Source: an uncultured Clostridia bacterium (lineage in GTDB: Bacteria > Bacillota > Clostridia > TANB77 > CAG-508). From it: 37,934 bases of DNA. The stretch spans positions 1 through 37,934 of the forward strand of contig CAJFUM010000089.1 in NCBI GenBank assembly GCA_904420285.1, given 5' to 3'. The position numbers were made by a program, and so were the translations under genes. The notes under the pieces were generated by a model that worked only from the letters and a program-made list of their open reading frames with translations, was not told where the DNA came from and searched no databases. The stretch's first letter is position 1, and each line of letters opens with the position of its first letter. Below, in pieces: positions 6,601 through 34,467 of the stretch.

Positions 6601-6644
6601 ATATTACAATTATGTTACAATTATATTAAAATTATATTACAAAA
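6601..6644 (+). repeat. Four tandem 11-bp repeats upstream of the sepF promoter
   Basis: Units at 6601-6611 ATATTACAATT, 6612-6622 ATGTTACAATT, 6623-6633 ATATTAAAATT and 6634-6644 ATATTACAAAA. The last unit ends exactly 12 nt before the -35 hexamer at 6657. The same unit recurs with the same offset before rsmD and ftsK. The 11-bp period places each copy on one face of the helix, which suggests a regulator-binding array. Confidence 0.7.
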
Positions 6645-6656
6645 ATAAAAAAACTA

Positions 6657-6685
6657 TTGACAATATGGATAAAATGATAGATACT
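6657..6685 (+). promoter_or_regulatory. Promoter of sepF-divIVA
   Basis: Perfect -35 TTGACA (6657-6662) and -10 GATACT (6680-6685) at 17-nt spacing. TACTAT at 6682-6687 is an alternative -10. It lies 12 nt after the tandem repeat array and about 45 nt before the sepF start. Confidence 0.7.
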
Positions 6686-6731
6686 ATATAAAGCGAAACG
6701 AATGACGAATATTTTTAAGGAGGTTTTATAA

Positions 6732-7214
6732 ATGTCAGGAGCTATTATGGAAAAAGTATGGGGAATGTTAGGTTTACCAGAAAAGGATGAAGAAGAAGTA
6801 GAAGATATAGATTATGATAAAAATGAAGAAATAGAAGAGCAAGACGAGGAAGAAGAAGATAGAAGAATTTGGGGAAGAAAGAGTAATAAAGTTGTAAATA
6901 TGCCACAAACTCAACAAGTTAAGATGGTTATTTGTCAACCTACTACTTTTGAACAATCAGAGAGTATATGCAATTTATTAAAAGAAAAGAAATCTATAAT
7001 TGTAAATTTAGAATATGTAAACAAAGATGTAGCTAGAAGAATAGTAGATGTTGTTAGTGGAGCTGTTCATGCATTAGATGGAAATTTACAAAAAGTGTCT
7101 AATTCTATATTCTTAGTTGCACCATATAATTATGATATTACAAACGAAATGGCTAGAGAAGAAATAAAAAATAAATTATCTGTTTCATGGCTAAGAAACA
7201 ATTCAAATAATTAA
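6732..7214 (+). CDS. sepF: Cell division protein SepF
   Basis: A 160-residue SepF that anchors and bundles FtsZ at the division septum. It has the N-terminal amphipathic membrane-binding helix (GAIMEKVWGMLGL), an acidic linker very rich in Glu/Asp (residues 19-45), and the C-terminal SepF domain (about 65-150) with QPTTFEQSESICNLL, KSIIVNLEYVNKDVARRIVD and FSGAVHALDG-like SGAVHALDGNLQKVS. Start ATG 6732 follows AAGGAGG. It forms an operon with divIVA 32 nt downstream and has its own promoter and repeat array. Confidence 0.96.
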   Translation: MSGAIMEKVWGMLGLPEKDEEEVEDIDYDKNEEIEEQDEEEEDRRIWGRKSNKVVNMPQTQQVKMVICQPTTFEQSESICNLLKEKKSIIVNLEYVNKDVARRIVDVVSGAVHALDGNLQKVSNSIFLVAPYNYDITNEMAREEIKNKLSVSWLRNNSNN

Positions 7215-7246
7215 TATAGTTATATAAGGAGTTTAGGAGGAAAATT

Positions 7247-7696
7247 ATGTATACACCATTGGATATAGAAAATAAAAAGTTCGCAAAACAAATGATGAAT
7301 GGCTATAGTGTAGAAGAAGTAGACAATTTTTTGGATGAGCTAACACTAGACTATGAAAAACTATATAAAGAATCAAATGAAAACAAAACTAAAATATCTG
7401 AATTAGAAGCAAGTCTTGTAAAATATAAAAATTTAGAATCAACATTACAAAATACTTTAGTAATGGCTCAAAGTACAGCTGATGAAATAAAAAAAGTTGC
7501 AAAACAAGAGGCAGAACAAATAATAAAAGATGCACAAGGAACAGCAAAACAACAAGCAATGGAGCTAGAGCAACAAATTACATTAAAATCTAAAGAATTG
7601 GATGACTTACAAAAACAATTTGATGTATATAAAGCTAAAATGGAATCATTATTAATTTCACAATTAGAATTATTAAAAGAAGTAAATAAAGATTAA
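7247..7696 (+). CDS. divIVA: DivIVA-domain cell-pole/septum protein
   Basis: A 149-residue protein. The N-terminal DivIVA lipid-binding domain shows YTPLDIENKKFAKQMMNGY followed by VEEVDNFLDELTLDYEKLYK, the classic F/Y-x-P-x-(D/E)-I-x(2)-K-x-F pattern. A long coiled coil from about residue 35 to 145 would form the parallel tetramer. DivIVA recognises curved membrane at poles and septum. It is at the short end for the family. AGGAGG sits eight bases before ATG 7247. It follows sepF, as in the Bacillus ylm cluster, but ylmG and ylmH are absent here; a ylmH-like gene lies at 28107. A terminator follows at once. Confidence 0.9.
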   Translation: MYTPLDIENKKFAKQMMNGYSVEEVDNFLDELTLDYEKLYKESNENKTKISELEASLVKYKNLESTLQNTLVMAQSTADEIKKVAKQEAEQIIKDAQGTAKQQAMELEQQITLKSKELDDLQKQFDVYKAKMESLLISQLELLKEVNKD

Positions 7697-7701
7697 AATA
7701 G

Positions 7702-7726
7702 AGCTAGTTAACAACTAGCTTTTTTG
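7702..7726 (+). terminator. Terminator of the sepF-divIVA operon
   Basis: AGCTAGTT (7702-7709), loop ACA, AACTAGCT (7713-7720), then TTTTT. It starts five bases after the divIVA stop. Confidence 0.9.
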
Positions 7727-7798
7727 TTTAAAGTTAGTATATTTACATTAAAGTATTTTTGTTATATAATATTAAAGAAATATTACAAAAATATAACA

Positions 7799-7831
7799 GT
7801 GTTACAAAATTATTAAATATATATTACAATT
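7799..7831 (+). repeat. Degenerate 11-bp repeat array upstream of the rsmD promoter
   Basis: Three units in 11-bp register: GTGTTACAAAA (7799-7809), TTATTAAATAT (7810-7820) and ATATTACAATT (7821-7831). The last is an exact copy of the sepF/ftsK unit and ends 12 nt before the -35 at 7844. A further out-of-register ATATTACAAAA lies at 7780-7790. Confidence 0.55.
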
Positions 7832-7843
7832 GTGTAAAGAATA

Positions 7844-7871
7844 TTGACATATTCAAAATAAAAGTTAAAAT
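7844..7871 (+). promoter_or_regulatory. Promoter of rsmD
   Basis: Perfect TTGACA (7844-7849), a 16-nt spacer and TAAAAT (7866-7871). Transcription would start some 20 nt before the rsmD ATG, which supports the start at 7900 over an upstream one. Confidence 0.65.
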
Positions 7872-7899
7872 ATATTATATACAATATAGGAGTATCATA

Positions 7900-8460
7900 A
7901 TGCGAGTAATAAGTGGAACAGCAAGAGGAACAAAATTAGAGTCAATTGATGATATTAATACAAGACCAACACTAGATAGAGTTAAAGAATCTTTATTCAA
8001 TATAATACAAAATAGAATTGATGGTAGTATGGTCTTGGATTTATTTGCTGGAAGTGGTGCAATAGGAATTGAGTTCATTAGTAGAGGATGTCAAAAAGTA
8101 TATTTTTGTGATAAATCTAAACAAGCAGTAAAAATGATAGAAAAGAATCTTACTAGAACTAAATTTATAGACAAATCTGAGATTTTTAATGAAGATTATA
8201 CTAATGTTCTAACTAAATTAAGTAATAAAAACATTAAATTTGATTTTGTGTATATTGATCCACCATATAAACATAACTTGGCAGCTGACTCTATTGCAAA
8301 AATTCTTACATTAGATTTATTAAAAAAAGATGGAAGTATTATTGTAGAAACAGACGAAAAAGAAAGAGATTTAAAAGAAATAGAAAAATTACAAGTAGAA
8401 GTGTATGATTTAAGAAAATATGGTAGAGCAAACTTAATATTCTTAAATCGAAAGGAGTAA
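7900..8460 (+). CDS. rsmD: 16S rRNA (guanine966-N2)-methyltransferase RsmD
   Basis: A 186-residue SAM-dependent methyltransferase that methylates G966 of 16S rRNA. It begins MRVISGTARG, the usual RsmD N-terminus, followed by TRPTLDRVKESLFNII, the SAM-binding VLDLFAGSGAIGIE (residues 45-58), and the catalytic YIDPPYKH motif (D/N-PPY for exocyclic amino groups). The frame is open upstream to 7759, but AGGAG spaced seven bases before ATG 7900 and the promoter at 7844-7871 fix the start. It is the first gene of a two-gene operon. coaD, its usual partner in Firmicutes, is not next. Confidence 0.95.
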   Translation: MRVISGTARGTKLESIDDINTRPTLDRVKESLFNIIQNRIDGSMVLDLFAGSGAIGIEFISRGCQKVYFCDKSKQAVKMIEKNLTRTKFIDKSEIFNEDYTNVLTKLSNKNIKFDFVYIDPPYKHNLAADSIAKILTLDLLKKDGSIIVETDEKERDLKEIEKLQVEVYDLRKYGRANLIFLNRKE

Positions 8461-8464
8461 GATT

Positions 8465-8902
8465 ATGGAAATATTTACTTTATTAGAAGCCTTAGAAGAT
8501 ATGCTTGATAAAAGCAGAGGAATACCTTTTTCTAGTAAATGTATTGTAAATAAGGAAGAAATTTTGGATATAGTTAAAGAAATTAGGTTGAAATTGCCTG
8601 ATGAATTAAAGCAAGCAAAATGGGTTAAAGAAGAAAGGCAAAGAATATTAGTTGAAGCTCAAAACGAAGCTGATGAAATAATTAAAGAAGCAGAAAATAG
8701 GATTATTTCAATGATAGATGAACATGAAATAACTAAAAAAGCATATGAGAAAAAAGTAGAAATAATAGAAACTGCAAATGAAATGTCTAGAGAAATTAAA
8801 AGTGGTACAGAAGAATATGCAGATGGAATATTAGCAGGAATTGAAGTTGCTTTAGAAGATGCTTTAAAAGTTATTAAAAACAATAGAAAAGAATTAAAAT
8901 AA
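8465..8902 (+). CDS. Coiled-coil protein, V-ATPase subunit H-like
   Basis: A 145-residue protein starting four bases after rsmD with AAAGGAG overlapping its end, so translation is coupled. The N-terminal part (EIFTLLEALEDMLDKSRGIPFSSK...VNKEEILDIVKEIRLKLPDE) is followed by a long helical stretch with ERQRILVEAQNEADEIIKEAE, the pattern seen in ATP synthase b/H-type stalks and DivIVA-like helices. In Clostridia, homologues after rsmD are often named vacuolar-type ATPase subunit H, though no ATPase genes are here. More likely a structural coiled-coil protein. The exact role is unknown. Confidence 0.75.
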   Translation: MEIFTLLEALEDMLDKSRGIPFSSKCIVNKEEILDIVKEIRLKLPDELKQAKWVKEERQRILVEAQNEADEIIKEAENRIISMIDEHEITKKAYEKKVEIIETANEMSREIKSGTEEYADGILAGIEVALEDALKVIKNNRKELK

Positions 8903-8903
8903 G

Positions 8904-8953
8904 AAAAACCAAAATATTAAGCAAATATATTGTTTAATATTTTGGTTTTTTAT
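8904..8953. terminator. Bidirectional terminator
   Basis: A perfect 17-bp stem: AAAAACCAAAATATTAA (8904-8920) with its complement at 8934-8950, flanked by A and T runs. It ends the rsmD operon and, on the other strand, the small membrane-protein gene whose stop lies at 8950-8952. Confidence 0.9.
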
Positions 8954-9138
8954 TTTATTGTAATGTTATTCCGCACACTATTTATATTATCCTCTTCTAC
9001 AACTGTAGGAATATTTATTTGTACATTATTTTTCTCATAATTAGATATAATGAAAAATATACATATAGCGAATATAATAATAAGAGAGATTATTGTAAGT
9101 ATAAATGTACTTTTTTTAACATATCCATCTATTTTCAT
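8950..9138 (-). CDS. Small single-pass membrane protein, unknown
   Basis: A 62-residue minus-strand product: a short basic N-terminus (MKIDGYVKKS), one strongly hydrophobic helix (about residues 11-34) and a hydrophilic Asn/Val-rich tail. The start at 9138 is chosen because AAAGGAG precedes it by the right distance, and it excludes 14 upstream codons. It has its own promoter (9171-9199) facing away from the Fn3-protein promoter, and the two share an inverted repeat, so they may be co-regulated. No family recognised. Confidence 0.65.
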   Translation of the reverse strand: MKIDGYVKKSTFILTIISLIIIFAICIFFIISNYEKNNVQINIPTVVEEDNINSVRNNITIK

Positions 9139-9170
9139 ATTAACTCCTTTACATAAAAAAATACATTTTG

Positions 9171-9199
9171 ATAATAACATATGTATAAATAAAAGTCAA
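9171..9199 (-). promoter_or_regulatory. Promoter of the small membrane-protein gene
   Basis: On the minus strand, TTGACT (9199-9194), a 17-nt spacer and TATTAT (9176-9171). The -35 lies in the left arm of the inverted repeat at 9195-9214. Confidence 0.6.
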
Positions 9200-9214
9200 A
9201 TTGGGAAATTTGAC
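9195..9214. promoter_or_regulatory. Inverted repeat containing both divergent -35 boxes
   Basis: GTCAAATT (9195-9202), a four-base centre GGGA, and AATTTGAC (9207-9214). The arms contain most of the -35 boxes of the two divergent promoters, so a dimeric regulator bound here would affect both genes. The symmetry may instead follow simply from two back-to-back -35 boxes. Confidence 0.4.
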
Positions 9215-9238
9215 AGTAAACATAAGATGTGATAGAAT
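9210..9238 (+). promoter_or_regulatory. Promoter of the Fn3-repeat protein gene
   Basis: Perfect TTGACA (9210-9215), a 17-nt spacer and TAGAAT (9233-9238), about 35 nt before ATG 9273. Confidence 0.7.
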
Positions 9239-9272
9239 AGGAACCAGTAAAAAAGAGAAAGGGGGATGCATT

Positions 9273-11039
9273 ATGAAAACTAAGGCTAAGTATGTGATTT
9301 TTATCACAATTTTAGTTGTATTACTAATGTCAATAACTTTGGCAGTAAGTGCTACAACTAGTTTTGAAGTTACTGATGTAAATGTTACAGTAACTGGAAC
9401 AAAAGCAGAGGTAGAATGGAGTAAAACTGAAAATGCTGATAAATACGAAGTTTATATTGATTTGCCTAATATAGGATATTTACATGTCGGAAGTGTAAAA
9501 AGCAATAAAGTGCAAATTATAGGCTTTGAAGAAGGCAAAATCTACGGAGTAAAGATAAAGGCGTATAAAAATGATAATGGTAGAACAGTAAAATCAGATT
9601 TTTCAGAAGAAGTAAGATTTGAAATTGGAGAAAACGAAAAAGTTACTTCTAAAATTGGTAGTGTAAAAAATATTGAAGCTATATCATTAGGAGAAACTGG
9701 TACACTTTCATGGGATAAAGCAGAAAATGCAACAGGATATGATGTATATGCAAGCATTGGCAATAGTGATTTTATAAATATAGGTTCTACTCAAACTACA
9801 AAAGTACAAGTAATAGGAATGGATCCCGATTTAGTTTATAGCATAAAAATAAAACCATATTTAAAACAAGGAACAGAAAAAATTTATGGCTCTTTTTCAG
9901 ATTTGGCAATTTTAAAGTATGATGATAATAAAAATACAAATGTAAGTAAAGTATATAATTTAAAAGTTTCAATGAATGGAAACAAAGCAAATATAACTTG
10001 GAATACAGTATCTGACGCAGATGGATATGAAGTAATTGTAAGAATGCCAGGTGGAACAGAAGCTACATATTATTCAGATGATAATGATATGTCATTAAGT
10101 GGTTTTACAGAGGATGAAACATATACTGTAAAAGTAAGAGCATACAAATATGTAAATGGAAAAAAATATTATGGAAGTTATTCTACATCAAAATCAATTA
10201 GATATGAAAATGAAAAATTAGCTAAGGTTACAGGGTTAAAAGTAACAATGAATGGAGATAGAGCTAGTTTCAAATGGAATAAAGTAACTGGGGCAGATGG
10301 ATATGAAATTTATATTTATACACCAGGATATGGAGTATCTCGATACAATAATACAAGCACCAGTAGACAAATGAGTGGATTTAATGTTACAGATGAATAT
10401 TATACAGTAAAAGTAAGAGCATATGAATATGTAAATGGAAGAAAAGTATATGGCGATTATTCTAGCCAAGTATATTTTAGAAACCAAGATATAGAAGTAG
10501 ATAAAGTAGAAGGAATAAATGTAACTGTAATTGGAACAAAAGCAACATTAAAGTGGGATAAAGTATATGGAGCAGATGGATATGAAATAAAATTAAATGT
10601 GCCAAATTATGGAACATATACATATACAACAACAGGTACAAGTAAAACAATTACTGGAGTTACTAATAGAACAAGCTTCTATACTGCAAGAGTAAGAGCA
10701 TATGAATATGTAAATGGAAGAAAAGTATATGGCGATTATTCTAATGAAGTTGGATTTAGAAGAGCAGATATTGATGTTGACAGGGTTACTGGCTTAAGAG
10801 TAAGAAGAACTGGCCAAGCAGCACAATTTACTTGGAATAAGGTTTCTGGAGCAGACGGATATGAAATTGCTGTAAACATTCCAGGAATTGGAGAATGCAC
10901 ATATATTGAAACATCTAATAGCAGATATATGACAGGATTTACAGAGACTAGATATAAATATCAAATTAGAGTAAGAGCTTTTAAAAATGTAAATGATGAG
11001 AGAGTATATGGAGATTATTCATATCAAGTTTCATTCTAA
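9273..11039 (+). CDS. Secreted protein of six fibronectin type III-like repeats
   Basis: A 588-residue exported protein. The signal peptide is a basic MKTKAKY, a hydrophobic core and an AVSA cleavage site near residue 27. The rest is six Fn3-like domains of about 93 residues starting near residues 30, 126, 222, 315, 412 and 505. Each has the pattern V.GTKA..W.K...ADGYEI and ends VRAYEYVNGRKVYGDYS. No sortase signal, catalytic domain or membrane anchor follows, so it is probably released or bound non-covalently to the wall, perhaps to glycans. Start ATG 9273 follows AAAGGGGG. Repeats 4 and 5 share an identical 52-bp DNA segment, which suggests recent repeat exchange. Confidence 0.88.
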   Translation: MKTKAKYVIFITILVVLLMSITLAVSATTSFEVTDVNVTVTGTKAEVEWSKTENADKYEVYIDLPNIGYLHVGSVKSNKVQIIGFEEGKIYGVKIKAYKNDNGRTVKSDFSEEVRFEIGENEKVTSKIGSVKNIEAISLGETGTLSWDKAENATGYDVYASIGNSDFINIGSTQTTKVQVIGMDPDLVYSIKIKPYLKQGTEKIYGSFSDLAILKYDDNKNTNVSKVYNLKVSMNGNKANITWNTVSDADGYEVIVRMPGGTEATYYSDDNDMSLSGFTEDETYTVKVRAYKYVNGKKYYGSYSTSKSIRYENEKLAKVTGLKVTMNGDRASFKWNKVTGADGYEIYIYTPGYGVSRYNNTSTSRQMSGFNVTDEYYTVKVRAYEYVNGRKVYGDYSSQVYFRNQDIEVDKVEGINVTVIGTKATLKWDKVYGADGYEIKLNVPNYGTYTYTTTGTSKTITGVTNRTSFYTARVRAYEYVNGRKVYGDYSNEVGFRRADIDVDRVTGLRVRRTGQAAQFTWNKVSGADGYEIAVNIPGIGECTYIETSNSRYMTGFTETRYKYQIRVRAFKNVNDERVYGDYSYQVSF

Positions 11040-11046
11040 AATAAAT

Positions 11047-11096
11047 AAAAAAGTACATTTATTGAATGTTAAAACATTCAGAGTGTACTTTTTTTG
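11047..11096 (+). terminator. Terminator of the Fn3-protein gene
   Basis: The outer stem AAAAAAGTACA (11047-11057) pairs with TGTACTTTTTT (11084-11094). An inner stem TGAATGTT (11063-11070) pairs with AACATTCA (11073-11080). A T run follows. Confidence 0.85.
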
Positions 11097-11098
11097 TA

Positions 11099-11120
11099 AT
11101 ATTACAATTATATTACAATT
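11099..11120 (+). repeat. Two tandem 11-bp repeats upstream of the ftsK promoter
   Basis: ATATTACAATT at 11099-11109 and again, identical, at 11110-11120. The array ends 12 nt before the -35 at 11133, the same offset as at sepF and rsmD. Confidence 0.7.
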
Positions 11121-11132
11121 TTGAAATAATGT

Positions 11133-11160
11133 TTGATTTTTAATTGCCTTGTGATATAAT
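11133..11160 (+). promoter_or_regulatory. Promoter of ftsK
   Basis: TTGATT (11133-11138), a 16-nt spacer and perfect TATAAT (11155-11160) with extended -10 TGA (11152-11154). Confidence 0.7.
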
Positions 11161-11205: not shown

Positions 11206-13608
11206 TTGGCAAAGAGGGGAAAAAGAGCAAAAAAGAAAAGTAATAAATTAGATATAAATGTAGCAGTAGTATTTATGTTTTTATTAAGTATTTTACTTGC
11301 AATATTAATATATACAAAATCTGGATATATAGGTGAACATTTAAGTCCAATTCTAGGTGGTATAATGGGAGCAATTAAATATATAATTCCTATTGGAACT
11401 TTTTTAATTGCAATATACATGACAACAGAGGATAAAGATTATTTAATTTCTAAATTAATACAATATGGTATTTTTTTAGTGTGTATAGCAACAATGCTTA
11501 GTGTATTTCAGTTTTCTAATGGAAATATCAATATAAATAGTGAGTTTTCTGAAGCTGTTCAAAAAGGATATGAATTAGGAGAGGTAAATAATGGCGGAGG
11601 AGCAATAGGCACTGCTATTTCGTATGCTTTAATAGGTTTACTAGGAGAAATAGGTACAGTTATTTTGTGTATAGGTGTTGCAGCTATATTATTAGTGTTT
11701 ATGTTCGGAATTAAACCTGCTGAAATGATAGCTGACTTTATAGAAGCAAGAAGAGAAAATAGAGAAGATAGGAGATTAGAAAGAGAAGAAGCAAGAATAG
11801 ATAAAGTTAATGATGAACCAAAAGAGAGAAAAGAAACTAAGAGGGAACGTAGATTAAGAGAAAGAGAAGAGCAAAGAAGAGAAGCAGAAGCTTTGGCAGA
11901 ACAGCTTACTATAAATTTGGAAGATGATGAAGAAGATAAAAAGAAAGAGAAAAAATTAAAAAGATATGATCATAAAGATGATAATTTAATACCATTTAAT
12001 ATAGGTGGAAAAAAGAAGGAAGAAAAAAGTAATCCAGATGTTATAGAGGCAAATTTATTTAAAGAAGAACAGGAAACAAAAGAGGAAAAAGTAAAACAAG
12101 TTTTACAATTGGAACATACTATAACCGTAGAAGATGAACATTATGAATTTCCACCTATACAATTGTTAGGAGAGGGAGATAAAAAGGGTATTAAAGGAGG
12201 AAAAAAAGCAGTTGCAGATACTGCTACAAAATTACAAAAAACATTATATAGTTTTGGAGTTTCTGCTAAAGTAGAAAATGTATCTGTTGGACCTGCTATA
12301 ACAAGATATGAATTAAAACCAGCAGAGGGAGTAAGAGTTAGTAAAATAGCTAATCTTGCTGATGATATAGCTCTTAATTTGGCTGCTGAAACCATTAGAA
12401 TTGAAGCTCCAATTCCTGGAAAACAGGCTGTTGGTATAGAGGTGCCAAACAAAGATAATGAGATAGTACCATTAAGAGATATTATAGATTGTGATGAATT
12501 TAAAGATCACAAATCTAAGTTAGCTTTTGCTTTAGGTAAAGATGTTGCTGGAAAAGAAGTAGTAGCAGATATTGCTAAAATGCCCCATGTTTTAATAGCA
12601 GGAGCAACAGGTTCTGGAAAATCAGTGTGTATTAATACATTAATTGCTAGTATTATTTATAAAGCAAAACCAAGTGAAGTAAAACTAGTAATGGTGGATC
12701 CTAAAGTTGTTGAGCTTTCTGTATATAATGGTATTCCACATTTATTAATTCCAGTAGTTACAGATCCTAAAAAAGCAGCTGGTGCACTTGCATGGGCAGT
12801 GCAAGAAATGGTTAATAGATATAGTTTGTTTGCAAGTAAGAATGTAAGAGATATAAAAGGATATAATGCTTCTTTAGAAGAAGCAGGAGAAGGACAAAAG
12901 CTTCCTCAAATAGTTATTATAATAGATGAACTTTCAGATTTAATGATGGTATCTCCAAAAGATGTGGAGGATTCAATTTGTAGATTAGCACAAATGGCAA
13001 GAGCTGCAGGTATGCATTTAGTAATTGCAACTCAAAGACCATCTGTTGATGTAATTACAGGTATTATTAAAGCAAATGTTCCATCTAGGATTTCATTTGC
13101 AGTTTCATCACAAGTAGATTCAAGAACTATTTTAGATATGGCAGGGGCTGAAAAATTATTGGGTAAAGGAGATATGCTTTTTTATCCAGCAGGTGCTCCA
13201 AAACCAACTAGAATACAAGGTGCTTTTATATCTGATAAAGAAGTTGAAAAAATAGTAGATTTTATTAAAAATAATGGAGAGGCTACATATAATGATGAAA
13301 TAATTAAACAAATTGAGAATGCAAATAGTACGGATAAAGAAATTGATAGTTCTGAAAGTGAAGATGATGCAGATCCATTATTAATGGAAGCAATTGAAGT
13401 GGTTGTAGAGACAGGACAAGCTTCTACATCTTTTATACAAAGAAGATTTAAAGTGGGTTATGCTAGAGCAGGAAGAATTATTGACCAAATGGAGGAAAGA
13501 GGTATTATATCTGGATTCCAAGGAAGCAAACCTAGAGAAGTACTTATGACTAAAGAAAGATGGGAAGAATTAAAAATGAGTAGCAATAATGCTAATGAGG
13601 AAAATTAA
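11206..13608 (+). CDS. ftsK: DNA translocase FtsK/SpoIIIE
   Basis: An 800-residue septal DNA pump that clears chromosomes from the division (or sporulation) septum. The N-terminus is basic ([10 protein letters not shown]) and followed by four transmembrane helices (about residues 18-165), then a charged Lys/Glu-rich linker. The motor shows [20 protein letters not shown], Walker A GATGSGKS (about residue 466), Walker [13 protein letters not shown], and [12 protein letters not shown]. The C-terminal gamma winged helix ([20 protein letters not shown]) recognises polar DNA motifs. The start is TTG 11206, because AAAGGAGG lies exactly seven bases upstream; the in-frame ATG 11182 lacks a site. A tandem operator-like array precedes the promoter. 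Confidence 0.95.
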
Positions 13609-34426: not shown

Positions 34427-34467
34427 AGACGATGTTAAAATTATGTTAATTTGAAAGGAGAATATAT

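Follow-up and report, generated by a model that had tools for sequence, protein, structure and literature searches.

The window analyzed here is a 37,934-nucleotide stretch from an uncultured Clostridia bacterium (assembly GCA_904420285.1, contig CAJFUM010000089.1). It contains sepF-divIVA, rsmD, and ftsK, each of which has a promoter preceded by TTACA-type units repeated at a period of 11 bp (Table 1). We checked these arrays on the sequence, and the coordinates given in an initial annotation of this DNA were confirmed. A replaces C (TTAAA) in unit three at sepF and in the central unit at rsmD. TRF picked up the arrays at 6601 and 11099 and not the array at 7799–7831. At sepF, rsmD, and ftsK alike, the final TTACA ends 15 bp short of the chosen −35 element, a distance that corresponds to the 12 nt measured earlier from the end of the 11-mer. 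The −35 element of ftsK is weak, and a TTTGAT at 11132 gives a spacer of 17 bp, so the ftsK register is 14 or 15. The further pair before rsmD is out of 11-bp register with the three-unit rsmD array. Rfam identified four tRNAs in the window, and a search of six leader loci gave no match there.

Table 1. Features of the sepF-divIVA, rsmD, and ftsK region (positions in the window).
Feature	Position	Strand	Description
Four-unit array upstream of sepF	6601..6644	-	TTACA 6604, 6615, 6637; TTAAA 6626; three TGTWAH half-sites and one degenerate
sepF-divIVA promoter	6657..6685	+	-35 TTGACA 6657; -10 GATACT 6680 (by eye)
sepF	6732..7214	+	Pfam SepF 4.6e-24
divIVA	7247..7696	+	Pfam DivIVA 2.2e-35
Pair before rsmD	7782..7798	-	TTACA 7783, TAACA 7794; perfect TGTWAH-N5-TGTWAH
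Three-unit array upstream of rsmD	7800..7831	-	TTACA 7802, TTAAA 7813, TTACA 7824
Inverted half-site TGTAAA, between rsmD array and -35	7833..7838	+	TGTWAH here in 24/25 promoters
rsmD promoter	7844..7871	+	-35 TTGACA 7844; -10 TAAAAT 7866
rsmD (16S rRNA methyltransferase, Cons_hypoth95)	7900..8460	+	Pfam PF03602 1.6e-52
Two-unit array upstream of ftsK	11099..11120	-	TTACA 11102, 11113; perfect TGTWAH-N5-TGTWAH
ftsK promoter	11133..11160	+	weak -35 TTGATT 11133; -10 TATAAT 11155
ftsK, TTG start	11206..13608	+	FtsK alpha, motor, and gamma domains

Frequency and Conservation of the Arrays

With two mismatches allowed, TTACAANNNNNTTACAA matched the window 31 times against a shuffle mean of 22.9, and 11 of 100 shuffles gave an equal or higher number. 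In this form, the motif is background in the AT-rich DNA of the window and is not enriched, as would be expected if the arrays were a chance likeness among AT-rich promoters. However, exact ATTACAANNNNATTACAA occurred 11 times genome-wide, compared with 0 for the backward control, and 24 same-genus genomes (G000–G023, including the window's own genome) contained 186 exact arrays, compared with five backward controls. Among 100 listed of the 115 ATTACA pairs lying 0–30 bases apart, the period was exactly 11 in 48, and the next most common period was 22 (six pairs). The excess of exact arrays over the control, together with their conservation in the orthologous promoters described below, contradicts chance, which we rejected as an extremely improbable explanation.

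The initial annotation had proposed examining the orthologues. An array was present in all 27 same-genus sepF promoters and in all 25 rsmD promoters read, a count that omits two further promoters cut off by contig ends. At ftsK, conservation was partial, with the pair in 12 of 22 promoters. All 25 rsmD promoters had TTACA-TTAA(A/G)-TTACA at a gap of 15, and in 21 of them, TAACA lay 8 bp ahead of the next unit. The sepF promoters of the 27 relatives had TTGACA followed by AGATACT. Variation in 22 sepF promoters amounted to 0.06 bits in the unit columns, 0.57 bits in the linkers and spacer, and 1.11 bits in the upstream flank; the C of TTACA was retained at three units in 21–22 of the 22, while the A/T linkers drifted. 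Because the array is conserved before orthologues, with nearly invariant unit columns and drifting linkers, the TTACA array is under selection. The proposal of a regulon is supported, since a helically phased, promoter-registered array is kept before orthologues.

An AT-rich, helix-phased stretch directly upstream of the −35 element could also aid RNA polymerase directly, as an UP-element-like or bent sequence with no dedicated regulator. However, such an element would not readily account for the retention of the C amid drifting A/T linkers, or for a sepF array that extends upstream to about −90. Furthermore, only one orientation peaked at the register: the gap to the −35 element was 14–15 in 15 of 44 promoters with TTACA, compared with 2 of 31 with the reversed TTGTA. 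An UP element alone is an unlikely explanation, and we assign the reading as a whole a very small probability. In the gap 14–15 set, 14 of the 15 promoters have a TTGAAA −35 element, and most are plainly members of one paralogous family, so the peak represents few independent events. The peak is also evidence for the WalR reading given below, against which the small number of independent events counts.

Arrays were also carried by a pilin-like promoter family, in the same register as the window promoters, and by ftsAZ in the clade, where the ftsA arrays lie at a gap of 7 from the −35 element. The fixed register claimed earlier thus held for the three window promoters and the pilin-like family but not for ftsA, and the different register at ftsA is a further point against WalR. 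PilM- and CpaB-like names for two array-bearing genes were dropped, as they had no Pfam support.

Candidate Regulators

The initial annotation had suggested an MraZ-like regulon. The mraZ gene was present in all 35 genomes searched (the window's own copy is interrupted), and direct repeats that are short, phased, and close to division genes would suit MraZ. However, the region upstream of mraZ had three copies of AAGTG with a period of 10 bp in all nine loci read, and no TTACA array was found there; this operator of the clade shares nothing with TTACA, and its box lies past the −10 element (by eye). It resembles the Mollicutes MraZ box AAAGTG[T/G] given in a passage of PMC8475190. No AAGTG pair of the mraZ-operator type was found within the window. 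Identity with the MraZ operator was rejected on sequence, period, and position, and binding of the TTACA arrays by MraZ or a similar division regulator is contradicted and highly improbable.

The relevant passage of PMC4168254 gives the WalR/VicR box consensus as TGTWAH-N5-TGTWAH, with a refined half-site of TGTWAHA. The opposite strand of the TTACA array has the published half-site (TGTAAT per TTACA), and the earlier description of the binder as an undescribed activator is therefore probably wrong. A scan of the window with TGTWAH-N5-TGTWAH gave four matches, of which three (perfect matches at 6603, 7782, and 11101) were in the sepF, rsmD, and ftsK promoters, all on one strand, and the fourth was at 34433 on the + strand. 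First-order Markov simulations gave an expectation of 0.77 per window and a maximum of 4 in 200, and because simulated windows also reach four matches, the placing of the matches tells more than their number. When 22 of the 27 sepF promoters were compared with TGTWAHA, units −1, −3, and −4 fitted in 21, 22, and 21, respectively. According to a section of PMC10746227, WalR sites upstream of the −35 element accompany activation in S. aureus, and site orientation is unimportant there; the orientation of the arrays is uniform across the sepF, rsmD, and ftsK promoters, which counts against WalR.

A WalR/WalK-like pair is present in the genome: the regulator at C74 is followed by the WalK-like kinase. 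The best NCBIfam family for the regulator is YycF (329.9 bits against a cut-off of 340; next family, 239), and the kinase scores 365.5 for WalK against an equivalog cut-off of 725; that both fall below their equivalog cut-offs weighs against WalR. The DNA-binding domain of the C74 regulator aligns first to the solved YycF, WalR, and VicR domains (2d1v, 2zxj, and 2hwv), and its recognition helix, RTVDVTIRRIREKIE, is almost identical to that of the solved WalR proteins, RTVDVTVRRLREKIE. ftsAZ, which carries the array in this clade, is reported to be a YycF target in B. subtilis (Fukuchi 2000). In addition, part of PMC5717166 states that WalR induces ftsZ. On this evidence, we interpret the arrays as tandem sites for an OmpR/PhoB-family regulator of the WalR (YycF/VicR) type, with a probability of about 0.6. 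That the binder is some OmpR-family regulator appears very likely, and it is probably WalR itself.

WalR was found in 18 of the 23 same-genus genomes searched and WalK in 25 of 30; neither was found in G002, G003, G006, G012, and G013. G006 is 99% complete. All five genomes keep the sepF array, an observation that argues against WalR as the binder. In several genomes, korC sits next to walK or close by, and G002, G003, G006, and G013 lack korC as well, so the failure to find walRK may possibly reflect a binning gap rather than loss. In an FtsK protein tree of 20 of 26 loci, the genomes without walRK formed no clade, and most forks were unsupported. A response-regulator tree had 14 rows; nine of 23 named loci, including the regulators at C74:8437 and C107, are absent from it. 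Autoregulation was rejected: neither walRK, in 17 WalR loci, nor the C35 regulator had an array ahead of it, and the few matches at these loci fall inside the walK or korC coding sequence. Peptidoglycan hydrolase genes are the usual WalR targets. None was recognized behind arrays in the loci read, in a genome that is 80% complete and in which most of the searched proteins had no Pfam match; this and the lack of an array at walRK are points against WalR.

Another OmpR-family regulator, that at C35 or a similar one, could be the main binder, with WalR sharing the sites or uninvolved. The C35 regulator was recovered in all five genomes fetched (G002, G003, G005, G006, and G013), of which four lack walR and walK, and its DNA-binding domain is almost identical among them. 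This domain aligns best to SaeR. The SaeR site is GTTAA-N6-GTTAA; like the arrays, it has a period of 11 bp, and it looks similar to the conserved TTAAA unit. However, C35 and WalR do not have the same recognition helix (that of C35 is SRTIDSHIKKIRHKLG), and the TTACA unit fits the WalR half-site. Moreover, genomes without walRK had fewer arrays than those with walRK (mean 4.0 vs. 8.7, raw p = 0.009; 3.0 vs. 6.3 per Mb, p = 0.021; both uncorrected for ancestry and gaps). We consider this alternative unlikely.

Proposed Mechanism and Significance

In the WalR-type model that we infer, the regulator would bind the arrays and activate rather than repress. Each TTACA would be one half-site, with one winged-helix domain per helical turn, arranged head to tail. 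From the last half-site, at about −55 to −51, the row of phosphorylated regulators would contact RNA polymerase and so increase expression from the sepF-divIVA, rsmD, and ftsK promoters and, at other loci, from those of ftsAZ and the pilin-like surface genes, and an envelope signal through WalK may couple division with surface output. A more speculative extension, which we regard as doubtful, is that one response regulator was rewired in this clade as a master switch of division and surface: the phased arrays, with a fixed weak TTAAA step before the last sepF or rsmD site, would create a cooperative threshold for ftsAZ, sepF-divIVA, ftsK, rsmD, and the multi-copy pilin-like family, and a second regulator would run the division sites where walRK was lost.

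If the WalR-type reading is correct, one envelope-sensing regulator controls the Z-ring genes ftsAZ, sepF, divIVA, and ftsK in a large lineage of uncultured gut bacteria, in parallel with MtrA over sepF and divIVA in mycobacteria. The many natural variants of the regulon would allow promoter output to be studied as a function of the length and phase of the array, and the possible walRK losses in the clade could reveal the replacement of an otherwise essential two-component system.

Comparison With Known Systems

The arrays share with the WalR/YycF/VicR box the half-site sequence, the 11-bp period, the head-to-tail layout, the position upstream of the −35 element, the ftsAZ target, and the presence of WalRK-type genes. 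In contrast to the WalR box pair, there are 3–5 half-sites at sepF, rsmD, ftsA, and the pilin-like family (two at ftsK), a conserved degenerate TTAAA unit, and a 14–15 bp register. The targets also differ, namely sepF-divIVA, rsmD, ftsK, and pilin-like genes, with no wall hydrolase recognized in the loci read and no array at walRK. In B. subtilis, the PhoP box (TT[ACT]A[CT]A with an 11-bp period) is found ahead of promoters in multi-repeat arrays; its half-site is close, but it has T where the units here have A or G. The MtrA box of Actinobacteria is also an OmpR-family direct repeat with an 11-bp period, and MtrA targets listed in part of PMC6265350 include sepF and wag31 (divIVA). However, its half-site sequence and phylum differ, and the C74 protein scores 239 for the MtrA family and 330 for YycF. 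The MraZ box is likewise associated with division genes and built of short direct repeats in phase, but it differs in sequence, period (10 bp), and position, and the mraZ of the clade has its own box. Among the matches listed in the open-access literature, none described arrays of this kind upstream of sepF, rsmD, or ftsK. The arrays of 3–5 half-sites, the conserved degenerate TTAAA unit, the register, and the target set are new.

Arrays at the three promoters

The initial annotation's description of three arrays with an 11-bp period at a constant distance from the -35 hexamer was borne out on the sequence for sepF-divIVA, rsmD and ftsK, gene names that are backed by Pfam. The third unit at sepF and the middle unit at rsmD read TTAAA.

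Arrays and WalR-consensus matches in the window
Feature	Position	Strand	Remark
TTACA-type array, 11-bp period	6601-6644		upstream of sepF-divIVA; ends 15 bp before -35
TTACA-type array, 11-bp period	7800-7831		upstream of rsmD; ends 15 bp before -35
TTACA-type array, 11-bp period	11099-11120		upstream of ftsK; ends 15 bp before -35
WalR-consensus match	6603	-	
WalR-consensus match	7782	-	
WalR-consensus match	11101	-	
Fourth WalR-consensus match	34433-34449	+	~20 bp ahead of frame starting 34468

When two mismatches were allowed, the loose motif occurred at background level in the window (31 matches vs. 22.9 in shuffles). The exact array is commoner than chance: relative to backward controls, it was counted 11 vs. 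0 times in the window's own assembly (1.42 Mb, 80% complete), 186 vs. 5 in 24 same-genus genomes, and 20 vs. 3 in 13 genomes from other families in the order, nine of which had at least one array. ATTACA pairs with a 0–30-bp spacer gave 115 matches vs. 30 backward, and the period was exactly 11 in 48 of the 100 listed.

Conservation and register

The array is a real, conserved array of regulator sites. It preceded sepF in all 27 genomes having SepF among 30 of the same genus, with the last TTACA at a gap of 15 bp from the -35 in 22 promoters, 14 in one and 13 in one; two were shifted, and one had TTAAA at the gap-15 position. Across 22 of these 27 promoters (G009, G014, G015, G022 and G042 omitted), mean variation was 0.06 bits in unit columns, 0.57 in linkers and spacer and 1.11 in the flank, and the penultimate unit was TTAAA in 20. 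Of 27 rsmD loci, two were truncated at contig ends, and all 25 readable ones carried TTACA-TTAA(A/G)-TTACA at gap 15; an inverted TGTWAH lay 4 bp past the last unit in 24 (vs. 3.6% of window 15-mers), and TAACA 8 bp ahead of the first unit in 21. An RsmD search gave 16 loci, of which 13 were read and three from distant phyla left out: the array was present at 10/10 uncultured clostridial loci and absent from 3/3 Clostridium species loci. Judged by length, six of the ten were contigs already in the genus set, so only four are independent (RsmD identity 52–61%). At ftsK, conservation proved partial: a promoter was located at 22 of 23 loci, with a pair in 12 (10 at one place, two off by one base) and no clean pair in 10.

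The pattern TTACA, gap 3–33, TTGAHA, 16–18 bp, TANNAT gave 57 matches vs. 13 backward controls. Removing 13 further units of the same promoter left 44 promoters, one row each (the farther unit was kept at contig C111). The gap was 14 or 15 in 15 of them, and any other gap occurred in at most three. Fourteen of the 15 share the -35 TTGAAA and represent few independent events, since most plainly belong to one paralogous family; the fifteenth is rsmD. This pattern missed the sepF and ftsK promoters, whose -10 and -35 do not fit it. The reversed unit, TTGTA, gave 31 matches vs. 9, with gap 14–15 in two of the 31. The fixed register stands at sepF, rsmD and ftsK and as a peak at 14–15; against a universal rule, ftsA arrays lie at gap 7. 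This was seen, as three or four TTACA units, at 12/12 loci of the same genus that were identified as ftsA, a biased sample picked because array matches had fallen there; TGTAATA overlay the -10 in all 12. The one ftsA locus from another family had two units and a different gap.

Other array-bearing genes

In the window's own genome, some array promoters form a family ahead of (GA)n leaders; the next gene, where the contig reaches it, is in some cases pilin-like (an N-methylation motif in one, at 20.6 bits, below the cut-off of 21.2). Other array-bearing genes were PrgI-like, mannose-6-phosphate isomerase-like, or of unknown family (several). At nine loci (L001, L002, L003, L009, L011, L056, L058, L060 and L063), a promoter, mostly with an array, is followed by a short frame entering (GA)n, and in six (L002, L009, L011, L056, L058 and L060) a common ~70-nt stretch follows, inside which the contig ends. 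These loci seem to be copies of one family whose leader contains a dinucleotide repeat of variable length; a search of six leader loci found no Rfam match. Contigs C19, C33 and C90 start with the repeat TTACATTTTNGTTACAATTATATTACAG and then a common segment GGTTAAAAACC. C85 has units resembling these, and together they seem to be another repeat family built from the same units. At L066 (G027, another family of the order), three similar small frames stand in tandem, each preceded by a TTACA pair; the first resembles a TrbC/VirB2 pilin, under the Pfam cut-off.

Candidate regulators

An MraZ-like regulon, as originally suggested, is contradicted by the mraZ upstream region itself. Among 35 genomes, all with mraZ, the nine loci read carried three AAGTG repeats at a 10-bp period directly upstream and no TTACA array. 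These repeats agree with the Mollicutes MraZ box AAAGTG[T/G] (PMC8475190). The mraZ frame is full (~145 aa) in most relatives listed and interrupted in the window's own genome (L154:1547-2000, contig C106), where the match is in pieces with stops, which could be an assembly error.

On the opposite strand, each TTACA reads TGTAAT or TGTAAC, and the WalR consensus TGTWAH-N5-TGTWAH, which has been applied to C. difficile (PMC9210968), matched the window four times (mean 0.77, maximum 4, in 200 Markov simulations). Judged by sequence, the array is of the WalR kind; its length, register and target set are unusual. The genome encodes six OmpR-type regulators. For the one at C74:19080, YycF is the nearest NCBIfam family, 10 bits under the cut-off, and YycF, WalR and VicR have the nearest solved DNA-binding domains; a short WalK-like kinase follows, scoring well under its cut-off. 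We infer WalR as the candidate protein binding the array.

WalR was found in 18/23 same-genus genomes (in two pieces in G009) and 12/12 of other families, and WalK in 25/30 of the same genus. Neither was found in G002, G003, G006, G012 and G013, all five of which keep the sepF array. This absence is either loss or an assembly gap, since korC, a gene beside or near walK in several genomes, is also missing from four (G002, G003, G006 and G013), G012, which has korC, is only 63% complete, and korC and walK lie on different contigs in G005. Exact arrays averaged 4.0 in genomes without WalRK vs. 8.7 with (p 0.009), or 3.0 vs. 6.3 per Mb (p 0.021), ancestry being ignored. In the FtsK tree, which left out G006, the other four were scattered or unresolved, with G012 beside a genome having WalRK. 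A rival candidate binder, the OmpR-family regulator on contig C35 (nearest solved DNA-binding domain, SaeR), was found in four of the five, the four where it was read. No array lay upstream of walRK or of this regulator at the loci read.

Comparison with known systems

WalR sites in S. aureus are associated with activation when they lie ahead of the -35, and with repression when they fall between the -35 and -10 or farther downstream (PMC10746227). By this rule, the sepF-divIVA, rsmD and ftsK promoters, with sites upstream of the -35, would be activated, as would ftsA, though a half-site also lies over its -10. The TTAAA step may be a tuned half-site, by analogy with S. mutans VicR, whose half-sites reportedly contribute unequally and for which helical phase reportedly matters (PMC4168254). 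Placing sepF and divIVA under an OmpR-family regulator has a precedent: the mycobacterial MtrA regulon includes sepF and wag31 (divIVA) (PMC6265350).
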